Shown here: positions 1,813-57,217 of the stretch, in pieces
How positions within the stretch are numbered: position 1 is the stretch's first letter
Layout of the letters: every line of letters starts with the position of its first letter
Assembly (NCBI GenBank): GCA_023663145.1
Contig: JAMPHZ010000001.1
Span: forward strand, 1-64,000
DNA: 64,000 nt
Direction of reading: 5' to 3'
DNA from: Odoribacter sp.
GTDB taxonomy: Bacteria > Bacteroidota > Bacteroidia > Bacteroidales > Muribaculaceae
Position numbers and translations under genes: made by a program
Notes under the pieces: model-generated
Database searches by the model: none
What the model saw: the letters and a program-made list of their open reading frames with translations, nothing else
What the model was told of the DNA's origin: nothing

Positions 1813-4268
1813 AAAGGGTCATCATCAATATAATACTTATAAGTTTTTTAGCACTCAACTGCATTGCCCGCAATGTTACGGTTAATGCCGATCAGGAGCC
1901 GGCTGCTGTAGTTTTCCGCGCTATTGTGGAACAGACGGGTAAGAACTTTGTGTATTCATCTGATATTCTTGAAGGGCTTAAAGTCACAGTCCATGCTGAA
2001 CGGAAACCACTCAAGAATGTATTACGAGACATGTTCAAGGATACCGATATTGAATTTAAGATAAAAGGAAACAATATAATATTAAGGCGCGGTAATATCA
2101 GGAGACTGGAGAATCCGGCACGAATCCCACATACACAGCCTGAGGTGACGTATATAGCATCGTTACCCGAGGTTACGATGCTTGATGAAGTGGTTGTGGT
2201 GTCGCGTCTTGAAGCGCCCGCGGTGGAGGCTGTCGAAATCGGTGCCACTAAGGTCACGGCGCAACAGGTGCGGGACACTCCCTCGTTGTTTGGAGAACCT
2301 GATGTTATAAAATCATTGCAGAAGCAGCCAGGAGTGGCGCAAGGGGATGAAGGCATGGCCGGGATGTATGTCCACGGTGGTAATGCTGATGAAAATCTGT
2401 ATATGCTTGATAATGTTCCGTTATATCATATAAATCATTTTGCTGGCTTGTTCTCGGCGTTCAACAGTGACATTATCAGGTATATTGATTTTTTTAAATC
2501 GTCGTTTCCGGCAAAGTACGACGGTCGTTTGTCATCGTTCATGGACGTAAGGTCGCGTAACGGCGATACTATGGGATACCATGGTTCTGCGCGTCTCGGT
2601 CTGACATCCGGAGCATTCAACATATCAGGGCCGGTAGGTTCGCGTACCACTTGGCTGGCGGCTATAAGACGTTCCTGGTATGATGTCCTTACTATCCCGG
2701 TGCTGGCTCTTGCCAATTCAGGGCAAGACGAGAAGGTGCGGTTCCATTATTATTTTATGGATTTGAATGCCAAGGTCACGCATCGCTTCAATGACAATAT
2801 GTCGGGCTTTGCCAGCGTATATTTTGGCGATGATATGCTTAAGACCGGTTCAAAAGACAGTGATCCCGGCAGCAGTGACTTTTCAGGATGGACTGAAGAC
2901 GATAAGTATGATTTCCATTGGGGTAACCTTGTGGTGCAGACAGGCCTCAATTGCCGTTTCTCATCGAAAATATCGGCTGAATTTACCGCAGCTTACACAC
3001 GCTTTTTTTCATCTATGAAGCATCATGACACCAATACATCTTTTTCCAACGGCACATCTTTGTCAGTATCACAGGAAATCTCAAGGACCAACAATAACAT
3101 AAACGATTGGATCTTCCGCGGCGACTTTGATTGGCAACCTTTCTCTGACTCGCGCGTGAGATTCGGCGCCGGCTATATCAGACATGCGTTTTTGCCGGCA
3201 CGCACCTCACACAGCTACATTTATAACGATACCCGTATTGACACGCGTGATTCAACATTTAGCTATGGAGCTGATGAGGTAAACGCATATGTTGAGAATG
3301 ATTGGCGCATCAGTGGTAAGGTGCGTGCCAATGTTGGAATCCATGCGTCGTTGTTCTCCATTGACTCTCACATTAAGCATGGATTGTCTCCGCGAATTTC
3401 AATAAATTGGCTTCTGGCAGAGGATTGGTCGATAAAGGGGGCTTATAGCCGTACGGTGCAATATGTGCACAAATTGGAGCAAAGCTATCTGTCAATGCCT
3501 ATTGACCAATGGTTGCCTGTGACCGGATCGTTCAAACCCCAGTCAGCTGATAAGGTCGCGGCCGGATTATATTGGCAGACCGCTTCAAGTATGGTTGCAG
3601 TGTCAGTGGAGGGATATTGGAAATGGATGCACAATCTTATTGACTACGGTGATGAATATTACTTGAAACCGCCTCTCGAGATGTGGGACAGCAGGCTTGT
3701 TACCGGTAGAGGTACTGCAAAGGGTGTTGATGTGAAGATTGAGAAAAAATATGGTAAGGTGACCGGTTATCTGACATATTCGCTTGCCTGGTCTGACCGT
3801 ACTTTTGCCGGTAAAAACGGCGGCCGCACTTTCCCCGCGCGTTTTGATAACCGTCATACAATAAATTTAGTTGTGAATTGGAAAATAAACGATAAGATTC
3901 AGCTTAACGCAGCATGGACAGGCCACTCAGGCAACCGTTTCACATTCATGCCTCAGGTGTGGGATGACCCCGGTTTCCACACCATATACGCAGGCTCTGT
4001 GACTCCGTTGCGTACATCTGTCAACAACTATCAACTTCCGTTTTATCACCGTCTTGATCTTTCGTGTACAGTAACCAATAGTCGCGGATACTGGTCCTTC
4101 GGATTATATAACGCATATAATCATCTCAACACAGTAGCTATAAGGCGCGCTCACAAGGAGGTGATTGTACCTACACCTGACGGTGTGGCCATTGAGTCGA
4201 AGCCGGTTTTTCAGAAGGTCAGATTTTTGCCTTTAATTCCATCAATATCATATACATGGCTTTTTTAA
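1809..4268 (+). CDS. TonB-dependent outer-membrane receptor with N-terminal STN signalling domain
   Basis: An 819-residue transducer-type TonB receptor. Residues 1-21 are a signal peptide. Residues 22-95 form an STN (secretin/TonB short N-terminal) domain, as in FecA-like receptors that pass a ligand signal to a FecR protein. A TonB-box-like MLDEVVVVSR follows near residue 125, then a plug domain (about 145-260; IKSLQKQPGV, MYVHGGNADENLYMLDNVP) and a barrel ending in SISYTWLF. The carboxypeptidase-like domain common in Bacteroidetes receptors is not seen between STN and plug. It is coupled to the FecR-like gene before it (4-bp overlap) and to a DUF4249 lipoprotein after it (13-bp overlap). 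The substrate cannot be read from the sequence. Confidence 0.9.
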   Translation: MKRVIINIILISFLALNCIARNVTVNADQEPAAVVFRAIVEQTGKNFVYSSDILEGLKVTVHAERKPLKNVLRDMFKDTDIEFKIKGNNIILRRGNIRRLENPARIPHTQPEVTYIASLPEVTMLDEVVVVSRLEAPAVEAVEIGATKVTAQQVRDTPSLFGEPDVIKSLQKQPGVAQGDEGMAGMYVHGGNADENLYMLDNVPLYHINHFAGLFSAFNSDIIRYIDFFKSSFPAKYDGRLSSFMDVRSRNGDTMGYHGSARLGLTSGAFNISGPVGSRTTWLAAIRRSWYDVLTIPVLALANSGQDEKVRFHYYFMDLNAKVTHRFNDNMSGFASVYFGDDMLKTGSKDSDPGSSDFSGWTEDDKYDFHWGNLVVQTGLNCRFSSKISAEFTAAYTRFFSSMKHHDTNTSFSNGTSLSVSQEISRTNNNINDWIFRGDFDWQPFSDSRVRFGAGYIRHAFLPARTSHSYIYNDTRIDTRDSTFSYGADEVNAYVENDWRISGKVRANVGIHASLFSIDSHIKHGLSPRISINWLLAEDWSIKGAYSRTVQYVHKLEQSYLSMPIDQWLPVTGSFKPQSADKVAAGLYWQTASSMVAVSVEGYWKWMHNLIDYGDEYYLKPPLEMWDSRLVTGRGTAKGVDVKIEKKYGKVTGYLTYSLAWSDRTFAGKNGGRTFPARFDNRHTINLVVNWKINDKIQLNAAWTGHSGNRFTFMPQVWDDPGFHTIYAGSVTPLRTSVNNYQLPFYHRLDLSCTVTNSRGYWSFGLYNAYNHLNTVAIRRAHKEVIVPTPDGVAIESKPVFQKVRFLPLIPSISYTWLF

Positions 4269-44534: not shown

Positions 44535-46145
44535 TTATTCGAACGCGCCCATCTTGAGCAGATTGACTTCTTCTTGTGTGAGGTAACGCCAACGGCCGCG
44601 GGGGAGGTTCTTTTTAGTCAGGCCGGCAAAGTACACGCGGTCAAGCTTGGTCACATGATATCCGAGGCTCTCGAATATACGGCGTACGATGCGGTTGCGG
44701 CCCGAATGGATCTCTATGCCGGCTTGGTTGCGGTCGGTTTCGGTGGCATAGGATATGGCGTCGGCATGGATAGGGCCGTCTTCGAGCTCTATGCCATCGG
44801 CTATGCGCTGCATGTCTTCTTCCGCGATGTCCTTGTCACACCACACATGATATATTTTTTTCTTTACATATTTGGGATGAGTCAGCTTAGATGCAAGATC
44901 ACCGTCATTGGTGAGCAGCAGCACACCGGTTGTGTTGCGGTCAAGACGTCCCACAGGGTAAATACGCTCGGTGCAGGCACCTTTAACGTAATCCATCACT
45001 GTGGTGCGGTCCTGCGGATCCTCGCTTGTGGTGACACAGTCTTTGGGCTTGTTGAGCAAGATGTAGCATTTGCTTTCGAGTGCCACTACCTTGTCATCAT
45101 ATTCCACTACATCGCTGTGGCATATCTTGGTGCCCAATTCGGTCACTACATTTCCGTTAACCTTTACAAGTCCTTGCTGAATGAATTCATCGGCTTCGCG
45201 GCGCGAGCATATGCCTGCGTTGCTCATGAACTTGTTCAGACGGATCGTTTCATTTGGATCAGGTATCGGCATTTCATATTCTATGCGCTTCGGACGCGGA
45301 GTGAAGCTCTTGCCGCGGCCGGGGAAGATACCGCCTTGCTGTCCGTTGCGGCGCTGCTGGCCCTGATTGTTGCGGTTGTATCCGCCCTGCTGATTGTTGC
45401 GGTTGTATCCGCCCTGCTGATTGTTGCGGTTGTATCCGCCCTGCTGTCCGTTGCGGTTGTATCCGCCCTGCTGTCCGTTGCGGTTGTATCCGCCTTGCTG
45501 TCCGTTGCGGTTGTATCCGCCCTGCTGGTTGTTGCGGTTGTATCCGCCCTGCTGATTGTTGCGGTTGTATCCGCCCTGCTGATTGTTGCGGTTATATCCG
45601 CCCTGCTGATTGTTGCGGTTGTATCCGCCCTGCTGGTTGTTGCGGTTGTATCCGCCCTGTTGGTTGTTGCGGTTGTATCCGCCCTGAGGGCGGGACTGAC
45701 CGTAAGGACGCGGTTGGTAACCTTGTTGACGCGGTTGATAGCCTTGTGACTGATTGTCATCGTTGCCTTGACCTAACGGTGACGACTCATTGTCGCGGTT
45801 TGAAAGGCTATATTCGCTGTTGTAAGGGCGGTAATTCTGGGGACGGTTTTGATTATATGAGTGTTGGGGATTGTAAGGGCGCTGTTGGCCGTAAGGACGA
45901 CGTTCAATGTGGTTGTCTGTGCCGATTCCCTGGGTATCGTTGTCGCGGCGAGGATATGACACGCGTTCAAAACGTGGCCGATCGCCGGTGCTTTCTTCTG
46001 GATTTGGTGTGATGTGAGGCGTCATGCCTATGCGCGGACGCTTGGATTTCTTTTCTCCTCCGTTGTTATCGATAACATCCATGTCTTTAAAGATTTTTTG
46101 GTCTTCTGGGTTGGTTAATTGTTTAATTCTTGTTTTTTGTCTCAT
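44535..46145 (-). CDS. RluB/RsuA-family pseudouridine synthase with long N-terminal Gly/Asn/Gln repeat region
   Basis: A 536-residue protein. About 295 N-terminal residues are low complexity: a basic segment, a Tyr/Pro/Gln-rich segment and twelve tandem copies of GGYNRN(N/G)QQ. The C-terminal 240 residues are a normal pseudouridine synthase: an S4 RNA-binding domain ([20 protein letters not shown]) and a catalytic domain with Asp in [19 protein letters not shown]. It would isomerise a uridine in 23S or 16S rRNA (RluB group most likely). The repeat region is unusual for the enzyme and resembles RNA-binding disordered tails. It is 14 bp upstream of asnS. A -7 box at 46270 gives a leader of about 120 bases. 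Confidence 0.9.
45363..45683 (-). repeat. 27-bp tandem repeat array, 12 copies, inside the pseudouridine synthase gene
   Basis: Twelve in-frame 27-bp units encode GGYNRNNQQ or GGYNRNGQQ; by reading order in the protein the pattern is six NN, three NG, three NN. Units are nearly identical at the DNA level, differing at one or two third-codon or Asn/Gly positions. Such an array should be prone to slippage and length variation between strains without breaking the frame. Confidence 0.92.
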
Positions 46146-46989: not shown

Positions 46990-47868
46990 TTAATTGCCGA
47001 AACTTAATATTGTAAAATATGCCGGATAACCTGAAGCTGTATATTCGCTTTCGTACGTTAATCTTATGAATTGATTGCCGGGCCCCCACCATGTGGTCTC
47101 TATACTGTTGCCGGAATTGTTGACACTGACAGGCGCGCCATAATTATTGGTGAGCATGGTATAGCTGATGTCGTAGCGGCTTGTGTCATAAATTGTGGAG
47201 GAGTACACAAATTGTGAAGCATATAATTGGCCTGCATTGTTGAAATACAAGGTTGCAGAGGGCCAATTCATGTTTAACATTGACACATCGTTGAGGCATA
47301 TGGTGTTGCTGCCATACGAATTGATAGAGTATCCGCTGTTGATAAGCGCATTAAGTGATATATTGAACGCAGTTCCCAATGTAATGCCCAGGATGCTGTT
47401 GATCGGGCGCCATCCCGGTGCCGGCCGCCAATGGGGTGGTGGTGTAGGGCGGTAGAAGGGCCGTGGAGGAGGAGTGTTGGGCCGCATGGGGCCGTAGCCG
47501 GGATGGCCGCCCGGAGGTCTGTGTCCCTGTGCCGGGCCACCGGGTCGGTACCCCGGATTCACAGGCCGTTGCGAACCGTTGCCCGGACGCTGTGGCCGGT
47601 TACCCGGTTGCTGCGGGCGGTTGCCAGGATGTTGCGGCTGATTGGGACGTGAAGAGGTCGGCGGTTGTTGTGGGCGGTTACCCAGTCCTTGTCCCTGATT
47701 ACCTGGTCGCGATGGCTGTGCCGGCCGTGATGGTTGCGACGGCGCTGTAGATGGCCGGTGGGTGCCTCCTCCGTTATTGTTGCGGCCACGTGTCTGTGCA
47801 TCGGCTGCCGGGAGTGCAAGCGCTCCGCACATTATCAATATCGTTACTGTCCTAAATAATCTTTTCAT
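46990..47868 (-). CDS. Secreted Pro/Gln/Arg-rich protein of unknown function
   Basis: A 292-residue exported protein. The signal peptide ends near residue 24 (PAADA/Q). Residues 25-150 are a disordered Pro/Gln/Arg/Gly/Asn region with repeats such as RPQQPGNRPQ. Residues 150-292 form a folded, aromatic and Asn-rich domain with short beta segments (ITLGTAFNISLNALINSGYSI). No family recognised. A -7-like TAAATTTG lies at 47897-47904 on the minus strand with a suboptimal 23-bp spacer to TTTG. It might be a cell-wall or surface-associated protein. Confidence 0.7.
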   Translation of the reverse strand: MKRLFRTVTILIMCGALALPAADAQTRGRNNNGGGTHRPSTAPSQPSRPAQPSRPGNQGQGLGNRPQQPPTSSRPNQPQHPGNRPQQPGNRPQRPGNGSQRPVNPGYRPGGPAQGHRPPGGHPGYGPMRPNTPPPRPFYRPTPPPHWRPAPGWRPINSILGITLGTAFNISLNALINSGYSINSYGSNTICLNDVSMLNMNWPSATLYFNNAGQLYASQFVYSSTIYDTSRYDISYTMLTNNYGAPVSVNNSGNSIETTWWGPGNQFIRLTYESEYTASGYPAYFTILSFGN

Positions 47869-48088
47869 AATTTTTTGTGCTTTATTATTTTGATAACAAA
47901 TTTAACCTCCGGTTTAACTGTATATGACAAAAAAATATTGATACAGGTATGTAACTGATGAATATACCGCCTTAGTAGGCATTTAAAACATTTTATATCT
48001 ACAATTGTTATAATCCTAAAGAATTTGCAATAGCATCTCTTAAACTGAAAACTATTATTATATTTATAAACTAAAAAACACACCTGTT

Positions 48089-49390
48089 ATGAACACAGCA
48101 CCTCTTCAGGGCATAAAAGTAGTTGATTTCACTAATGTGCAATCAGGACCCTCGTGTACACAAATGCTCGCGTGGCTTGGAGCCGACGTTGTAAAGATTG
48201 AACGTCCGGGCACCGGCGACGCCACCCGTAATGAACTTCAGTTTCTCCCCGACGAACCAAGTTATTATTTTCTCCAATTAAATTCTGATAAGAAATCACT
48301 CGCCCTTGACGCTGCCACAGCCGACGGCCGTGAAATCCTTACAAAACTCATTCAGGGAGCTGATATTTTTATAGAGAACCTTCATCCCGGCGCAATGGAT
48401 AAATTGGGCTTCAGTTGGGAGAACGTTCATAAAATCAATCCCCGTTGTATATACGGTACCATCAAGGGCTTCCCGCTTTCGTCACGTTTCGCTGACCTGA
48501 AAGCATATGAACCTGTAGCTCAGGTAACAGCCGGAGCGGCATCTACCACCGGCTGGTGGGAAGGTGACAATAATGTGCCCACTCAAAGCGGCGCGGCACT
48601 TGGTGATTCAAATACCGGCATGCACATGCTGATCGGCTTGCTTGCCGCGCTTATGCAGCGTGAAAAAACCGGAGAGGGATGTTATGTGTACCAATCGATG
48701 CACAATGCCTGTCTCAATCTTTGCCGTATCAAGACACGTGACCAGCTGACTCTTGACCGGCTCGGTTATCTTACCCAGTTCCCTCAATACCCGAATGGCA
48801 AGTTCAGTGATTTTGTCCCACGTTCCGGTAATCAGGAAGGCTCCGGCGTGCTTGGCTGGACATATAAGTGCAAGGGGTACGAGACTGATCCAAACGCTTA
48901 TGTATATGTGATACTGCAACGAGGTGCCAAAGATTTTGAGAAAGCCTGTCAGGCACTTGGTTTCGAGGATTGGCTCACCAATCCTGATTTCAACACAGCC
49001 GATGCCCGTGACCGTCATAAACAGGAGATATATGCTCGCATACAGCAGTTCTGTATTGATAAGGATAAATTCGAGGTAACCAAATTGCTGTCGGCTGCCG
49101 GTGTGCCCGTGGCTCCTGTGCTTTCGACAAAGGAAATCATGACTGATCAGAGCCTTTATGATGGCAATACTCTCGTGAAGATCAATCAGGGAGGTAATAT
49201 AGGTGAGTTCGTGACCGTGGGCGTGCCGTTTACAATGTCGAACTATCAGCCTACCTACGGCCCGTGTCCTACCTTGGGTGGCAACACCGAGGAGGTGCTT
49301 ACCTCTTTGGGCTTTACACCTGAACAGCAGGCCCAGTTCAAGGCCAACGGCACTACCGCACCCATACCAAAAGCTGCACCTTCTAAGTAA
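48089..49390 (+). CDS. frc: Formyl-CoA:oxalate CoA-transferase
   Basis: A 433-residue class III CoA-transferase that moves CoA from formyl-CoA to oxalate, giving oxalyl-CoA and formate. It aligns by eye along its length with the O. formigenes enzyme: VDFTNVQSGPSCTQMLAWLGA at the start, the catalytic Asp173 in GAALGDSNTGMH (Asp169 of O. formigenes), and YKCKGYETDPNAYVY. The mobile glycine loop (GGGG in O. formigenes and YfdW) reads EGSG here. Immediately downstream are oxc and an AEC transporter, so the call is much safer than for a lone class III transferase. No consensus TAnnTTTG promoter is visible upstream, which hints at special control. Confidence 0.93.
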   Translation: MNTAPLQGIKVVDFTNVQSGPSCTQMLAWLGADVVKIERPGTGDATRNELQFLPDEPSYYFLQLNSDKKSLALDAATADGREILTKLIQGADIFIENLHPGAMDKLGFSWENVHKINPRCIYGTIKGFPLSSRFADLKAYEPVAQVTAGAASTTGWWEGDNNVPTQSGAALGDSNTGMHMLIGLLAALMQREKTGEGCYVYQSMHNACLNLCRIKTRDQLTLDRLGYLTQFPQYPNGKFSDFVPRSGNQEGSGVLGWTYKCKGYETDPNAYVYVILQRGAKDFEKACQALGFEDWLTNPDFNTADARDRHKQEIYARIQQFCIDKDKFEVTKLLSAAGVPVAPVLSTKEIMTDQSLYDGNTLVKINQGGNIGEFVTVGVPFTMSNYQPTYGPCPTLGGNTEEVLTSLGFTPEQQAQFKANGTTAPIPKAAPSK

Positions 49391-49403
49391 TTAACCATAA
49401 AAC

Positions 49404-49440
49404 GGGAAGAACGCCAGACTCGGATCAAGGTGTTCTTCCC
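49404..49440 (+). terminator. Intercistronic hairpin between frc and oxc
   Basis: GGGAAGAACGCC (49404-49415) pairs with GGTGTTCTTCCC (49429-49440), 12 bp with one G-U pair and a 13-base loop. Only two Ts follow, so it may act as a partial terminator or an RNA-stability element that protects frc mRNA. Confidence 0.6.
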
Positions 49441-49464
49441 TTAACCGATTTCATACTAATTAAT

Positions 49465-51195
49465 ATGACAACAACGACTCCTTCCACCACACCCTCATAT
49501 CCCTCACAGGTAACCGGAATGTGGGTACTTGCCAAGGCTCTGGGTATGGTAGGTATTAAAGATATGTACGGACTGGTGGGTATTCCTGTCACTGACCTGG
49601 CTTATATCGCTCAGGAACAGGGAATACGTTTCGTGGGATTCCGCCACGAGCAACAGGCTGGCATGGCAGCCCAGACCCATGGTTACCTTACCGGCACCCC
49701 CGGCGTATTGCTTACCGTATCATCGCTCGGATTTCTGAACGGGCTCACCGCCACCATCAATGCCACTGTCAACTGTTATCCGATGATTCAGATTTCAGGA
49801 TCATCTCAACGCGAACCCATTGATCTTGATCAAGGCACCTATGAGGGTCTTGATCAACTTGCGGTAGCCCGGCCGTTGGTAAAGGCTGCCTATAGGGTTA
49901 ACCGTGTTGAGGATATTCCCACGGCTGTGGTGCGCGCTTACCGGGCCGCTATTTCAGGAAGGCCCGGCGGTGTGTATCTTGACGTAACAACTCCTTGCCT
50001 GGGGCAGATAATCGACCGTGATCAGGCCGAGGCTCTTTTCTATACCCCGGTAGATATGAATCCGGCCATGCCGCCGGCTCAGGAGGCTGTAGCCCGTGCA
50101 GCATCCATGATAGCATCAGCCAAACGCCCGGCCATTGTATTAGGTAAGGGTGCGGCCTATGCCCGTGTGGAAAATGAAGTGAAGAAACTCGTGGACACCA
50201 CCGGTATCCCTTATTTCTCAATGTCTATGGCCAAGGGACTTCTGCCTGACGATGCACCACTTAGTGCCATGGCTTGCCGGTCAACGATAATGGAGCAGAG
50301 TGATGTGGTGGTATTGATCGGTGCACGCCTCAACTGGCTTCTGTCACGCGGTCGCGGCAAATGGAGCAAGGACGTAAAATTCGTGCAACTTGACATTGAG
50401 CCTACCGAGATCGACTGCAATGTGCCTATTGCCGCACCAGTGGTTGGCGATCTCAAGAGTTCGCTTGACGCAATTCTTGCCGAGTTGCCCAATTATAAGA
50501 TGAGTATGGATCCAGCGTGGGTTCCTTCCCTGCAGGCGGAGACCAAGACCAAGAATGCCAAGTTCGCTGCCCGTCTGGCCGAGAATGCCGCTGCCAGCCC
50601 CATGAATCACTGGACCGCTCTGAATGCTATAAAGCCTATATTGGAAAGCAATCCGGATGTAATACTTGTAAATGAGGGCGCGAATACCCTTGACGACACC
50701 CGCGACACGATAAACATGAGCTTGCCCCGCCATCGTATTGATTGTGCTACATGGGCAATCATGGGCATGGGCATGGGATCGACAGTGGGAGCAGCGGTCG
50801 CCACCGGCAAGAGTGTGGTGGCCATAGAAGGAGACAGTGCGTTCGGTTTCTCGGGTATGGACTTTTCTACGGCATGTCGTTTCAATCTGCCTGTAACTGT
50901 TGTAATATTCAACAACGGTGGTATTTACAATGGTATTGGCAAGAATATGAGCGACTCAGGGGATCCTGCTCCAACTACCCTTGACATCAATGCCCGTTAT
51001 GATAAGTTGGGCGAGGCATTCGGTGCCGATACATATTATGTTACCACTCCCGAAGAACTCTCTACCGCTCTCAAGGCATCCATAGCCTCAAAGAAGCCTA
51101 CCTTGATTGATGTGCAGCTTGCGGCTGACTCAGGCAAGGAATCAGGGCATATTGGTTATCTGAATCCAGCCTCGTTGCAGCATATCACGGTATAA
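49465..51195 (+). CDS. oxc: Oxalyl-CoA decarboxylase
   Basis: A 576-residue thiamine-diphosphate enzyme that converts oxalyl-CoA to formyl-CoA and CO2, consuming a proton. Residues known in the O. formigenes enzyme are conserved: Glu62 in FRHEQQAG (Glu56), Tyr126-Glu127 in QGTYEGLDQ (Tyr120-Glu121), Tyr in NNGGIYNG (Tyr483) and Ser in KESGHIGYLN (Ser553). The ThDP/Mg motif runs from GDSAFGFSG to NNGG. It lies 74 bp after frc across a hairpin and 32 bp before an AEC transporter gene. Other ThDP enzymes such as acetolactate synthase lack these residues, so the identity is strong. Confidence 0.95.
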   Translation: MTTTTPSTTPSYPSQVTGMWVLAKALGMVGIKDMYGLVGIPVTDLAYIAQEQGIRFVGFRHEQQAGMAAQTHGYLTGTPGVLLTVSSLGFLNGLTATINATVNCYPMIQISGSSQREPIDLDQGTYEGLDQLAVARPLVKAAYRVNRVEDIPTAVVRAYRAAISGRPGGVYLDVTTPCLGQIIDRDQAEALFYTPVDMNPAMPPAQEAVARAASMIASAKRPAIVLGKGAAYARVENEVKKLVDTTGIPYFSMSMAKGLLPDDAPLSAMACRSTIMEQSDVVVLIGARLNWLLSRGRGKWSKDVKFVQLDIEPTEIDCNVPIAAPVVGDLKSSLDAILAELPNYKMSMDPAWVPSLQAETKTKNAKFAARLAENAAASPMNHWTALNAIKPILESNPDVILVNEGANTLDDTRDTINMSLPRHRIDCATWAIMGMGMGSTVGAAVATGKSVVAIEGDSAFGFSGMDFSTACRFNLPVTVVIFNNGGIYNGIGKNMSDSGDPAPTTLDINARYDKLGEAFGADTYYVTTPEELSTALKASIASKKPTLIDVQLAADSGKESGHIGYLNPASLQHITV

Positions 51196-51227
51196 TAGCT
51201 CTTATTTAACGTTTCAATATTATTGTC

Positions 51228-52205
51228 ATGGTACACATTATTTTATATGCCATAGTGCCTGTTCTGGTAATTATGCTGCTTGGATACTATTCGGGAAAGG
51301 CAGGCGCGTTTTCGGGTGATAATGCCCGTGTGCTCAACAAGGTTGTTTTAAACTATGCGTTGCCGGCAGCCTTGTTCATATCAATCGTCAAGGCCAACCG
51401 CCACATGCTTAGCGTGGACGTCAAGTTGACCATCATATCGTTTGTGGTGTTGATGGTATGTTTTTTCCTCGTATATTTTGTGTTCAAATATTTCTATAAG
51501 GACACTGTCGCTGAGTCGGCGGTATCGGCCTTGATCAGTGGTTCGCCTACGATCGGATTCCTTGGTTTTGCTGTTTTGCAGCCTATATTCGGTGACTCAG
51601 CGTCGGTAGGTCTTGTGATAGCCATTGTTGCCATAGAGGTAAATGCTCTGGGTATTCCTATCGGTCTTGCACTGCTTAATGCCGGTAATGCGCAACAGGC
51701 AGCAGCTCAGAATGGCGGCAAGAAGCCCAATCCGTGGCTTCCGGTAATCAATGCCTTGAAGCAGCCTGTGGCATGGGCGCCTATCCTGGCAGTGATATTG
51801 GTACTATGTGGGCTTAAGTGGCCGGCTTTTCTTGATCCGTCGTTCAAGCTTATTTCGGGCGCAAACGCTTCGGTAGCTGTATTCGCGGCCGGTATAACCC
51901 TTTCAGCTGTAAAGATCAAGATCAATGGTCAGGCTATCATGGGTTCATTTCTGAAACTGATCGTGATGCCTCTGGCACTGCTTGTAGTGGGTATCATCTT
52001 CAAGATGGATCCGCTTAACCTCAAGATGCTTGTGGTGTGCGGTGCACTTCCTCCCGCTTTCTCAGGTATAATCATTGCCAGCCGTTACAATTGTTATGTT
52101 GCCACCGGTACGTCATCCCTGGCGTTGTCAACGGTGCTTTTCATGGGATTCTGTCCGCTTTGGATATGGCTAACCGATGTAGCTCTCAAGATGTTCCCGT
52201 ATTGA
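51228..52205 (+). CDS. AEC-family transporter, probable oxalate (or oxalate/formate) carrier
   Basis: A 325-residue inner-membrane protein with about ten helices. The auxin efflux carrier pattern is visible: VLNKVVLNYALPAALFISIVK near residues 35-60, a central hydrophilic loop with Lys/Asn/Gln, and a second half starting ISGANASVAVFAAGITL. E. coli yfdV, next to yfdW (frc) and yfdU (oxc), is the same family. No OxlT-type antiporter is in the window, so this protein is the best candidate for oxalate entry or formate exit. The substrate is inferred from operon context. Confidence 0.85.
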   Translation: MVHIILYAIVPVLVIMLLGYYSGKAGAFSGDNARVLNKVVLNYALPAALFISIVKANRHMLSVDVKLTIISFVVLMVCFFLVYFVFKYFYKDTVAESAVSALISGSPTIGFLGFAVLQPIFGDSASVGLVIAIVAIEVNALGIPIGLALLNAGNAQQAAAQNGGKKPNPWLPVINALKQPVAWAPILAVILVLCGLKWPAFLDPSFKLISGANASVAVFAAGITLSAVKIKINGQAIMGSFLKLIVMPLALLVVGIIFKMDPLNLKMLVVCGALPPAFSGIIIASRYNCYVATGTSSLALSTVLFMGFCPLWIWLTDVALKMFPY

Positions 52206-52218
52206 TAAGGAATATTGA

Positions 52219-52275
52219 TTGAAAACAGCAATCCCGCATCACCGGCTTGAAGTGATGCGGGATTGCTGTTTTCAA
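52219..52275. terminator. Perfect 24-bp inverted-repeat bidirectional terminator
   Basis: Positions 52219-52242 and 52252-52275 are perfectly complementary around a 9-base loop. The stem is flanked by AAAA/TTTT, so it can terminate both the oxalate operon and the convergent dehydrogenase gene, whose TGA stop (52272-52274) lies within the stem. Confidence 0.9.
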
Positions 52276-53234
52276 TTGACTACATTGACCGGTGTACCGT
52301 CAATCCACGCTTTGAGATTGGAGGCCGATGATTGCAGAAGACGTCGCCGTGCAGCTACAGACTGCCATGCCACATGAGGTGTGATAATTATCTTGGAGGC
52401 GATGTCGGGTGCAAGCAGCGGGTTGTCGTGTGCGGGAGGCTCCTGGGCCATGACGTCGGTGGCTGCTGCCGCGAGATGTCCGCTGCGCAGGGCGTCGGCG
52501 AGGGCTTGTTCGTCAACGATGGGTCCGCGGGCTGTGTTGATCAGTATGGCTCCCTGCTTCATGCGGGCTAAGTTGTCGGCATTGAAAAGTCCTTTGTTTT
52601 CGGAGGTGAGGGGTGCGTTGACGGATATGACGTCGGCGTTGGAAAGCATTTCGCCGAAAGTTACTTTGCGGGCGTAATGCGGTAATGCTGATTGTGGTTT
52701 TGAGGTCGGTGTTATGACTTTCATCCCTAACGCGGCTGCAATAGCTCCGACTTTCGCCCCGATATTTCCGTAGCCATATATTCCCATGGTGAGCGATGCC
52801 AATTCGGTGATGGGTCCCAGAGTGTAGCTGAAGTCAGGACATGCCGACCAGTCGCCGCGATGCACTGATTCGTTATAGGCGGCGGTGCGGTTGGTGATTT
52901 CGAGCAGAAGTGCCGTTACGAGCTGTGCCACCGAGTCACCGCTGTATCCCGGTACATTGCATACGGTTATGCCGTGCTGTCGGGCAGCTTTGATATCAAT
53001 GTTATTGTATCCGGTGGCGAGTTCGCCAATGAATTTCAGATGCGGCAGATTGTCGATTATATGGGCGGAGATCTCTACCTTGTTCACGAATATAGCGTCA
53101 GCTCCTGATGCCCGGGTAATGATGTCGGCCGGGGATGTGCGGTCATATACCACAAGTTCTCCCATATTGGCGAGGCTGTCCCAAGATAGATCGCCAGGAT
53201 TGGCCACATGTCCGTCAAGTACAACTATTTTCAT
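52272..53234 (-). CDS. D-2-hydroxyacid dehydrogenase (glycerate/hydroxypyruvate reductase-like)
   Basis: A 320-residue NAD(P)-dependent dehydrogenase. The nucleotide-binding loop is GIYGYGNIG (GxGxxG), followed by catalytic Arg in INTARGPIVDE, Glu in MAQEPP and His in ITPHVAW. The family includes HprA, which interconverts hydroxypyruvate and glycerate or glyoxylate and glycolate. The gene is convergent with the oxalate operon and shares its terminator, so a C2-acid role is tempting, but there is no co-transcription. The coenzyme and substrate cannot be set from sequence. Confidence 0.85.
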   Translation of the reverse strand: MKIVVLDGHVANPGDLSWDSLANMGELVVYDRTSPADIITRASGADAIFVNKVEISAHIIDNLPHLKFIGELATGYNNIDIKAARQHGITVCNVPGYSGDSVAQLVTALLLEITNRTAAYNESVHRGDWSACPDFSYTLGPITELASLTMGIYGYGNIGAKVGAIAAALGMKVITPTSKPQSALPHYARKVTFGEMLSNADVISVNAPLTSENKGLFNADNLARMKQGAILINTARGPIVDEQALADALRSGHLAAAATDVMAQEPPAHDNPLLAPDIASKIIITPHVAWQSVAARRRLLQSSASNLKAWIDGTPVNVVN

Positions 53235-53578: not shown

Positions 53579-55699
53579 ATGAAGATAGTGATATTGGTCG
53601 TTTCGGTTTTGTTGCCGTTGTCGGCTATCGCGCAAAATACCGGTACGGTCTATGACGTGTGTGTGGAGAGTCCTGACAGTACTGATGTGCATGAGCTTAA
53701 TGAGATAGTGATCGAGGCCTCCAATCAAAGGATAAATGCAGAAGTGTCAACTTATATTCCCATGGCACGTCAGAAAAATTCCGCTCAGAATGCTGTGGCT
53801 CTGCTTTCCCAGATGTCGATACCTCAGATTGATGTTGATCCCATAAATCTTGCAGTGAAAACAGCGCATGGGCAGAGTGTGTCGATTTTCATTGATTACA
53901 TTCCGGCAACATCCGCTGACCTGCAAGGTATGAAACCTCAGGATGTAAAGAAAGTGGAGTATTATATGCACCCGTCAGATGCTCGTTTTCAAGGTGCCAA
54001 GTATGTCATTAATTTTGTCATGCAGAAATATGAATGGGGTGGATATACGAAGCTTACGGCCGATAAATGGTTAGGAGTGAACCGGACAGAGGGTTCGCTA
54101 TATTCAAAGATGACTTATAAGCGAATGACATTTGATGTTTTTGCTGACGAAATATATCTGACAAACAGACATATGGGCCAAATGTCAACTGAATATTTCA
54201 AATTTACAGACTTCAATGGTGATGGTCCAATGTCGGTAATAAGAAATTCTGACACCGAGGCCTCTCTTTATAGGAATAACAGTAATGATTTCAGCATTCG
54301 CGCCTTATACAACACAAGAAACATACAGATTTCAAACAGGTTATCGTATAGTTTGACAAATGTTCCGCATAACGATTTGATAAATAGTCTGTTGTATTCT
54401 TCTGACAGATTTCCGGTGTCTGAATCTTCCACAATTTCGTCTTCTAAAGATTGGGCTTTGAACTATGTGGGTGGATATTTCTTCATGCTGTCCAAGCAAG
54501 TGGCTCTTAATGTTGATGCGACCTATACATATGGGCGTAATTCATCGAACTCTGATTTCCGGATACCTGATGATCTGTCTATAATCAACAATGCCAAGGA
54601 GGACGTTCATAAGTTCGCGACATATCTTCACCTGACATGGAACCCGGATAAGTCAAATCGATTCTTTACCAATTTTGGCGTTCATCATGACTGGAATATT
54701 ATCAACTATTATGGTAATTCACCTTCAAGGCAGAAATACGATGTGGGTGTTTATTTCCTCGGACAGAATTATCAGCACATATTCAACGATCAATGGAACG
54801 TGGGCACCGGATTGGCGTGGATCTGGGAGACGAACAGAATATCTGGCGTAAATGCTGACAATAATTTTCCTCAGACAAATATCAACGCCACATGGTCGCC
54901 TAATGATAAGAACCAACTGTATTTGACGGCTAACTACGGCTCAATGTTCCCGGATGCTTCTCAAAAAAGCCCTAATATGCTACAGCAGGATGAGCTGATG
55001 TGGTATAGGGGAACACCGGAATTAAAAGATTACAAGTACACCAATGCGTTGCTGTCATATACATGGTTGCCCAATAACCGCTGGCAACTGACTGCTGATG
55101 CTTATTTTGGCTATATCAAGGGCAGATGTGTGACCCTTTATTCACCGTCAGGTCCTGATGGTACGATGCTCCGCCAATATTTCAACGGGGGTGATTACTT
55201 CAGTGATTATATCGGAATAAACGCTACCGGCAAGTTTTTCGGCGGTAAACTTGTGGCAAAACTTCGCCCACAGTTCTGGATCCGGAAGACCACAGGCGAT
55301 TATGCATGGAGTAATAATCAGTTGACTTGCACAGCTCAACTTACGTATTATTTCGGGAACTTTTATTTGCTTGGCTATTACAAGACTCCAAGCAAGTATC
55401 AGGAAAATCACAGTGGGGTTATTCGCCGCTCTCCTTCAAAATACGAAGTCCAGATAGGTTGGGGGAAAGGAGCATGGAATGTTAAGGCGTCGGCTTACAA
55501 TTTCTTACATACCTCATGGGAAGACTATAAAGAAACGTTATCGAGCGAGTATTATAGCTTTGACCGCACGACCTTCGGCACACAGCACCATTCACGGTAT
55601 TCGGTATCGGTTACATATACTATCAGTTACGGTAAGAAAGTACAACATGATAACGAAATATCGGGATCAGGTACGGCGGGGTCGGCAATATTGAAATAA
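53579..55699 (+). CDS. TonB-dependent receptor-like outer-membrane beta-barrel protein
   Basis: A 706-residue outer-membrane protein. After a signal peptide (1-18), the TonB-box-like ELNEIVIEAS is followed by a plug domain (NAVALLSQMSIPQIDVD, then DVKKVEYYMHPSDARFQGAKY) and a barrel of about 550 residues in the OMP_b-brl_3 style. No N-terminal carboxypeptidase-like or STN domain is present. It sits 167 bp before an ECF sigma factor gene and shares plug layout with the receptor at 57237, suggesting paralogy. The final residues (SGTAGSAILK) do not end in an aromatic residue, which is atypical for barrels. Confidence 0.82.
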   Translation: MKIVILVVSVLLPLSAIAQNTGTVYDVCVESPDSTDVHELNEIVIEASNQRINAEVSTYIPMARQKNSAQNAVALLSQMSIPQIDVDPINLAVKTAHGQSVSIFIDYIPATSADLQGMKPQDVKKVEYYMHPSDARFQGAKYVINFVMQKYEWGGYTKLTADKWLGVNRTEGSLYSKMTYKRMTFDVFADEIYLTNRHMGQMSTEYFKFTDFNGDGPMSVIRNSDTEASLYRNNSNDFSIRALYNTRNIQISNRLSYSLTNVPHNDLINSLLYSSDRFPVSESSTISSSKDWALNYVGGYFFMLSKQVALNVDATYTYGRNSSNSDFRIPDDLSIINNAKEDVHKFATYLHLTWNPDKSNRFFTNFGVHHDWNIINYYGNSPSRQKYDVGVYFLGQNYQHIFNDQWNVGTGLAWIWETNRISGVNADNNFPQTNINATWSPNDKNQLYLTANYGSMFPDASQKSPNMLQQDELMWYRGTPELKDYKYTNALLSYTWLPNNRWQLTADAYFGYIKGRCVTLYSPSGPDGTMLRQYFNGGDYFSDYIGINATGKFFGGKLVAKLRPQFWIRKTTGDYAWSNNQLTCTAQLTYYFGNFYLLGYYKTPSKYQENHSGVIRRSPSKYEVQIGWGKGAWNVKASAYNFLHTSWEDYKETLSSEYYSFDRTTFGTQHHSRYSVSVTYTISYGKKVQHDNEISGSGTAGSAILK

Positions 55700-55866
55700 C
55701 GAGGATAGCGTAACGTAAGCTGTATAGCCTGCATCAGTCAGCAACAGATTGCCGCTACAATAGTTCTTGATTTATTGTGCATCTTGCTTTTCTCAACTTT
55801 ATTTGATCAAAGTGCGAGTTGCCTTGTTACGTTTGTCCGCTTCAATCGTATCAATAGTGTAACGCA

Positions 55867-56346
55867 ATGAAAAAGGACTTACTGACATCATCCTACCTTG
55901 ACATCCGGAGCAAACTGCACCGTATTGCCATAATGCTTCTTCGGAACGACGAGGATGCAAAGGACGCAGTACAGGATACTTTCGAGAAGTTGTGGAAGAA
56001 AGAAGACGTAGAATCCAGTGCGGAGGCCCGCAACAAACTGGTGCATATTCTGCGCAATGTCTGTATTGACCGGCTTAGAACCCGCCATACTGTGCCTCTG
56101 GAGTCTGTAGTGACAGAATTTGAAAACGGACATGAGATGCCAACGGAGGATATGGAACGTTACGAGCGGCTGATAGTGAATGGATTGACGGATGTGCAAA
56201 TGCATATATATAATTTGCTTACTCATGATTGCCTTGAATATGAGGAAGTCGCCAAACTTTTAAATATGTCGGTTGAGGCAGTGCGGATGAATATGAGCCG
56301 CGCCCGCAAAAGGATTCGCGAAAATATTAAAATGATTGACAGATGA
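55867..56346 (+). CDS. ECF RNA polymerase sigma factor
   Basis: A 159-residue ECF sigma factor. Region 2 is seen in LRNDEDAKDAVQDTFEKLW and LVHILRNVCIDRLR. Region 4 is seen in LEYEEVAKLLNMSVEAVRMNMSRARKRIRE. It overlaps the next gene, a membrane protein that looks like its anti-sigma factor, by 4 bp (ATGA). It probably controls the flanking receptor genes. No TAnnTTTG box is obvious upstream, so autoregulation from an ECF promoter is possible. Confidence 0.88.
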   Translation: MKKDLLTSSYLDIRSKLHRIAIMLLRNDEDAKDAVQDTFEKLWKKEDVESSAEARNKLVHILRNVCIDRLRTRHTVPLESVVTEFENGHEMPTEDMERYERLIVNGLTDVQMHIYNLLTHDCLEYEEVAKLLNMSVEAVRMNMSRARKRIRENIKMIDR

Positions 56347-56837
56347 AGACAGACGAACCGAACCTTACAGCAGATGAATTGGAAGAACTTTGCCGTCTTT
56401 ACATGGATTGCAGATTATCTGTAATGGAGGAAAAAGAGTTGGAATATGTTCTGTTGCGGACATCTCTGACTTCTCCCTCAATTGAGGAAGTCAGAAGCCT
56501 TATGGATATTCAAGTTATTCCACTTCGTTCATCAAAGTCTGCAAGAGCGAAGCTCAATCGGAATTGGCGATATGCTGCCGGAATTGCAGCGGGCATCGCA
56601 ATTATATTCGGTATAGGCTTCACCGTTTATAGACCTGATATTTCTCAATCTGCAGTTCAAGTTAATTGTATGGCTTACGTCAATGGTCATGAAATTCATG
56701 GTGATGCTGCTATGGCTCATATTGAGTCTGAAACACGAAAAGCTGAAGAATTTATAAACAGAATGGCAGAATTAGAAGAAGAGGAACAATATAAGGTTGA
56801 ACAATTTATGAACCATCAAAACGACATACTACAATGA
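56343..56837 (+). CDS. Probable anti-sigma factor, single-pass membrane protein
   Basis: A 164-residue protein with an acidic helical N-terminus (TADELEELCRLYMDCRLSVMEEKEL), a membrane helix at about residues 78-97 (AAGIAAGIAIIFGIGFTVY) and a short periplasmic part ending in a Glu-rich coiled-coil-like segment. Such a layout next to an ECF sigma gene fits an anti-sigma factor, though no FecR or zinc-binding domain is visible. It overlaps the sigma gene and the next gene by 4 bp each. The local base composition is clearly A/T-rich. Confidence 0.65.
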   Translation: MKTDEPNLTADELEELCRLYMDCRLSVMEEKELEYVLLRTSLTSPSIEEVRSLMDIQVIPLRSSKSARAKLNRNWRYAAGIAAGIAIIFGIGFTVYRPDISQSAVQVNCMAYVNGHEIHGDAAMAHIESETRKAEEFINRMAELEEEEQYKVEQFMNHQNDILQ

Positions 56838-57217
56838 GAAGATTAGTGATTTTCATAGCAATAACAATTCTGTCAGTAGCCGCATACGCAAAAGCACCTA
56901 ATCTGACTGTGGAGAAACTTTTTGATGGTCGTTATAACAAAACTGCCGGAGTTACCTCTACTATGTATAAGAATAATGGGAAATACTATCGTGGTCTCAC
57001 AATAGAGAATAATCCCAATGTGATCAAGGCTATCGCAGATGCCATGAAAACTGATGCTCCAAGAGCCTCTCATTACTCAGATCATCAAAAGCAAGACGGT
57101 CAATATACCTCAATGAAAGTTCTCAATAATGGCGAAACAATTTTCATTGGGTTACAACGGGACAACAATGGAGGTGGATTTTTCTTTATTCAAGGCAACG
57201 AAGCCGCATTTAAGTAA
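56834..57217 (+). CDS. Small exported protein (DUF6108-like)
   Basis: A 127-residue exported protein with a signal peptide (1-19). The mature part reads NLTVEKLFDGRYNKTAGVTSTMYKNNGKYYRGLTIENN, which resembles small Bacteroidetes proteins I recall as DUF6108 that are often found after ECF sigma genes. It has a signalling or ligand-sensing position between the anti-sigma-like gene (4-bp overlap) and a receptor gene (19-bp gap). No function is known to me. Confidence 0.65.
   Translation: MRRLVIFIAITILSVAAYAKAPNLTVEKLFDGRYNKTAGVTSTMYKNNGKYYRGLTIENNPNVIKAIADAMKTDAPRASHYSDHQKQDGQYTSMKVLNNGETIFIGLQRDNNGGGFFFIQGNEAAFK

Follow-up and report, generated by a model that had tools for sequence, protein, structure and literature searches.

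The window, i.e. the whole 64-kb stretch of DNA that was analysed, carries three intact co-directional open reading frames, frc, oxc and a gene for an AEC-family carrier, at positions 48089-52205 of the plus strand, with no internal stops and with intergenic gaps of 74 bp (frc/oxc) and 32 bp (oxc/AEC). The three adjacent plus-strand genes of the original prediction were thus confirmed by both reading frames and family profiles, and comprise the following features:

47869-48088, plus strand: A+T-rich leader between the divergent gene at 46990-47868 (minus strand) and frc, the promoter presumably lying inside it
48089-49390, plus strand: frc, formyl-CoA:oxalate CoA-transferase, 433 aa, above the TIGR03253 cut-off, with D173, Q18, Y60, Y140 and E141 kept
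49465-51195, plus strand: oxc, oxalyl-CoA decarboxylase (ThDP enzyme), 576 aa, above the TIGR03254 and NF006721 cut-offs
51228-52205, plus strand: YfdV-like AEC-family carrier, 325 aa, probable oxalate importer, placed by PF03547 and by its position after oxc

The host genome (2.25 Mb, 99% complete) belongs to Muribaculaceae (S24-7), and its nearest Oxc relatives are found in metagenome-assembled genomes of Muribaculaceae or Bacteroidales. Scans for sigma-70 promoters and terminators gave sites no commoner than in shuffled sequence, the sequence ahead of frc showed no enrichment of the Bacteroidetes -7/-33 consensus across 61 loci, and no convincing promoter motif was seen in the leader. Two neighbours were considered as further cassette members and rejected, namely the convergent 2-hydroxyacid dehydrogenase at 52272-53234 and the divergent proline-rich protein at 46990-47868; the window flanks share no homology with the corresponding flanks of any relative, and the cassette is therefore taken to be three genes in this genome. 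Further out, the minus strand encodes a pseudouridine synthase (44535-46145; S4 and PseudoU_synth_2 domains) with a long N-terminal tail of about a dozen GGYNRNNQQ-like repeats. On the plus strand, a gene group at 53579-57217 opens with a probable outer-membrane protein of 706 aa that matches no Pfam family; after it come an ECF-type sigma factor, a putative anti-sigma factor containing a single hydrophobic segment, and a small protein that looks secreted.

The decarboxylase scored 765.2 bits against TIGR03254 (cut-off 739.4) and 808 bits against NF006721 (cut-off 557). It is approximately 52% identical to the Oxalobacter formigenes OXC, and its closest solved structures are oxalyl-CoA decarboxylases including that enzyme; the best of these are the enzymes of E. 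coli, Methylorubrum extorquens and O. formigenes. The O. formigenes residues E56, Y120, E121, Y483 and S553 correspond to E62, Y126, E127, Y488 and S560 in the window and are invariant across 81 Muribaculaceae Oxc sequences.

For Frc, the match to the formyl-CoA transferase equivalog TIGR03253 reached 579.8 bits (cut-off 504.2), with approximately 54% identity to E. coli Frc/YfdW, which is also the closest solved structure, and 47% to O. formigenes FRC. The catalytic Asp169 of the latter is D173 in the window and is Asp in all 74 Muribaculaceae Frc sequences, and every catalytic residue named beforehand for the two enzymes held in the window and in each Muribaculaceae relative compared. The tetraglycine loop (GGGGQ in O. 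formigenes and E. coli), which is typical of Frc but is not known to be strictly required and was not counted as defining, is absent: the window reads EGSGVLGW where the reference reads GGGGQPGW, a difference that the original prediction did not mention. At this site (window 48836-48856, residues 250-256) all 74 Muribaculaceae sequences, that of the window included, have EG[S/G]GVLG, whereas the loop is GGGGQPG in O. formigenes, E. coli, Klebsiella, Acetobacter and Cupriavidus, SGGGQPG in Paracoccus, and EGGQVLG in Cetobacterium and in a second Bacteroidales family, coded f78. The position of W48 is likewise changed, being Glu in the window (E49), unlike in the characterised Frc enzymes compared. 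The glycine loop shields covalent CoA intermediates, and its replacement by EG[S/G]GVL could therefore alter the kinetics or specificity of the enzyme.

The third protein is a member of the AEC family (192 bits against PF03547, cut-off 25.7), and its best NCBIfam match was to YfdV (NF007384), at 360.9 bits against a cut-off of 404. The AEC gene comes after oxc in all relatives whose sequence reaches far enough, and from this linkage the protein probably imports oxalate. No protein in the genome matched the OxlT antiporter family (TIGR04259), MFS proteins being present with none of that type, so the predicted lack of an OxlT-type antiporter extends to the whole genome and neither coupled oxalate/formate antiport nor a proton-motive gain from such electrogenic exchange is indicated. 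The original prediction had also proposed the gene order of E. coli without yfdX or yfdE, and this was borne out: the frc-oxc-yfdV order matches, no YfdX match was present in the genome, and the single CoA_transf_3 protein encoded, i.e. one class III CoA-transferase in total, leaves none to serve as YfdE. Searches of the genome for the pyruvate formate-lyase family, formate-THF ligase and formate dehydrogenase alpha (TIGR01591) gave no match, and an FNT-type formate channel is encoded away from the cassette on contig C37; together these results make formate look like an exported end product, and it is probably released as waste. At positions 2257-4154 of locus L106 (G000 C37:87000-95000), the FNT formate/nitrite channel gene directly follows a gene for a 373-aa protein with no NCBIfam match, which by our own reading resembles a universal stress protein.

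Among relatives, Frc was found in 174 of 297 Muribaculaceae genomes (165 above the cut-off) and in 18 of the 30 genera sampled. An order-wide sample of 393 genomes contained it in seven, namely five Muribaculaceae and two members of family f78, and a phylum-wide sample in one of 395, the window genome itself. The order frc, oxc, AEC on one strand was observed in 76 of 80 relatives' loci, the other four being cut by contig ends, and upstream flanks were common to only 37 of 1830 locus pairs; the cassette stays together while the genes around it mostly differ.

A fourth gene recurs beside the cassette in part of the family. In 28 of the 71 Muribaculaceae loci with room for it, nifJ (pyruvate:ferredoxin oxidoreductase, PFOR) comes after AEC in the same orientation, at a distance of 11-287 bp in 27 loci and 1.4 kb in L004, and it also follows AEC by approximately 40 bp in both f78 genomes (L104 and L105). 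Examples within Muribaculaceae are:

L033, 8846-12367: nifJ
L032, 8986-12744: nifJ
26 further relatives' loci: nifJ

Two of the AEC-linked PFOR proteins scored 1557 and 1624 bits against TIGR02176 (cut-off 911), and for the one protein compared with solved structures the closest were PFORs. When mapped on the Oxc tree, the linkage required 13-14 changes. No nifJ is present beside the window cassette or elsewhere in the 64-kb window.

In trees of Frc, Oxc and AEC, the Muribaculaceae sequences formed one clade each on a long stem. For Frc and Oxc the nearest branches were Cetobacterium and f78, and for AEC the nearest was Cetobacterium, with some of these joins below star-level support, long branches flagged, and the trees built without Lactobacillus and Bifidobacterium sequences. 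As all three window proteins fall inside the single Muribaculaceae clade, a recent import into this genome from outside the family is not supported. Within the family, locus L042 has its AEC protein in the window-like set but its Oxc outside it, and locus L013 has the opposite arrangement. Constraining the sets to stay together was rejected with AU p-values of 2.7e-96 for Oxc and 6.3e-8 for AEC, which are optimistic because the groups were picked after tree inspection; the differences in log-likelihood, 144 and 185, are large. These conflicts point to exchange and suggest that parts of the cassette have moved within Muribaculaceae.

The pathway in this family was already known. In Ormerod et al. 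2016 (PMC4936053), frc, oxc and an adjacent permease are reported in 19 of 30 S24-7 genomes, the permease occurs only in genomes with the enzyme pair, and the pattern is attributed to lineage-specific loss, which together with the exchange described here suggests that both processes seem to occur. Lagkouvardos et al. 2019 (PMC6381624) list a formate transporter as well as the two enzymes as Muribaculaceae-specific KOs, a mouse metaproteome detected Frc and Oxc expressed by Bacteroidetes at far higher abundance in faeces than in caecum (PMC5348496), human metagenomes also hold Muribaculaceae oxc (PMC8062136), and a 2025 study lists Muribaculaceae among taxa with oxalate genes (PMC12045624). The functional reading originally proposed, a type II pathway with its carrier, therefore stands on protein families, residues and gene order, and the novelty it implied does not, given the 2016 description of the trio, the 2019 confirmation and the mouse protein data. 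Relative to the genes of the 2016 and 2019 papers, the window adds a further species with the same enzyme pair and permease adjoining oxc, nothing essential differing. What appears to be new is confined to small details for which no description was found in the literature searched: the EG[S/G]GVL loop, the exchange of cassette parts within the family and the occurrence of nifJ next to the cassette, a search for nifJ or PFOR linked to oxalate genes having returned nothing on Muribaculaceae.

The E. coli K-12 locus (yfdX-frc-oxc-yfdV-yfdE) shares the frc-oxc-yfdV order, with proteins 51-56% identical by tblastn, but the window differs in its Frc loop and in having neither yfdX nor yfdE. Plasmid p4 of Cetobacterium somerae (Fusobacteriota) carries the same frc-oxc-AEC arrangement without these partners (Frc 60% and Oxc 53% identical), but its cassette is plasmid-borne, has the loop EGGQVL and includes a cupin protein among the upstream genes. 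Both enzymes and their catalytic residues are common to O. formigenes and the window genome, which however lacks an OxlT match and has a Frc only 47% identical.

Taken together, the protein families, catalytic residues and conserved gene order support the functional reading well, and it is very likely that the trio is a standard type II oxalate-degradation operon. Oxalate would enter, probably through the AEC carrier, and Frc would transfer the CoA of formyl-CoA to oxalate, which yields oxalyl-CoA and formate. The ThDP enzyme Oxc would then decarboxylate oxalyl-CoA to formyl-CoA and CO2, returning CoA to Frc, for a predicted net reaction of oxalate + H+ to formate + CO2 with one proton consumed, and formate would likely leave as waste through the FNT channel encoded elsewhere. 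That the enzymes are active, that the carrier moves oxalate, that the genes are co-transcribed, that formate is exported and that the cell gains from it are all predictions read from the genes.

AEC-family carriers have varied substrates. That variety and the score below the YfdV cut-off would also fit a protein that exports formate or another anion, with oxalate entering by a different route. This reading is considered unlikely, as the AEC protein is the sole transporter linked to the trio across Muribaculaceae and in E. coli, Klebsiella and Cetobacterium, the genome has an FNT formate channel of its own, and, according to PMC4936053, S24-7 genomes carry the permease only together with the enzyme pair. 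The altered Frc raises a second question, namely whether the enzyme has shifted to another donor or acceptor (e.g. transferring CoA from acetyl- or succinyl-CoA to oxalate) and runs a CoA cycle unlike that of O. formigenes. The clade-wide replacement of GGGGQP, extending as EGGQVL to Cetobacterium and f78, the Glu at the W48/Q48 position and the lack of a separate YfdE-type enzyme to prime the CoA cycle would be consistent with such a shift. However, the protein matches the formyl-CoA transferase equivalog at 580 bits and the YfdE model at only 164, far below its cut-off of 522, every locus read has it together with Oxc, and loop glycines G259 and G261 are retained along with D169, leaving the shift distinctly improbable.

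That the cassette is a decayed or unexpressed remnant is scarcely credible: no promoter was recognised, but the three frames are intact, all catalytic residues are conserved, the trio is retained across Muribaculaceae, and Bacteroidetes Frc and Oxc protein was detected in mouse faeces (PMC5348496). A broader and rather doubtful proposal is that Bacteroidales hold a distinct cassette lineage, a four-gene frc-oxc-AEC-nifJ unit in which an altered-loop Frc would work with a dedicated PFOR feeding or balancing the CoA/formyl-CoA cycle; the window would then be a reduced form without the nifJ linkage, and parts would be exchanged among gut Muribaculaceae.

With a type II operon, the host cell could benefit by consuming acid, by detoxification or through a small gain of energy; the acid tolerance and the energy supply named in the original prediction are likewise predictions. 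A modest reading, in line with Ormerod et al. (PMC4936053), is detoxification or acid consumption beside sugar fermentation. Members of the Muribaculaceae abound in the gut of rodents and are also present in other mammals, and their oxalate pathway therefore bears on oxalate absorption and kidney-stone risk, a relevance already argued in 2016-2017. To this the present analysis adds an unusual clade-wide Frc loop, a physiology in which formate is probably waste, and the repeated occurrence of a PFOR gene beside the cassette.
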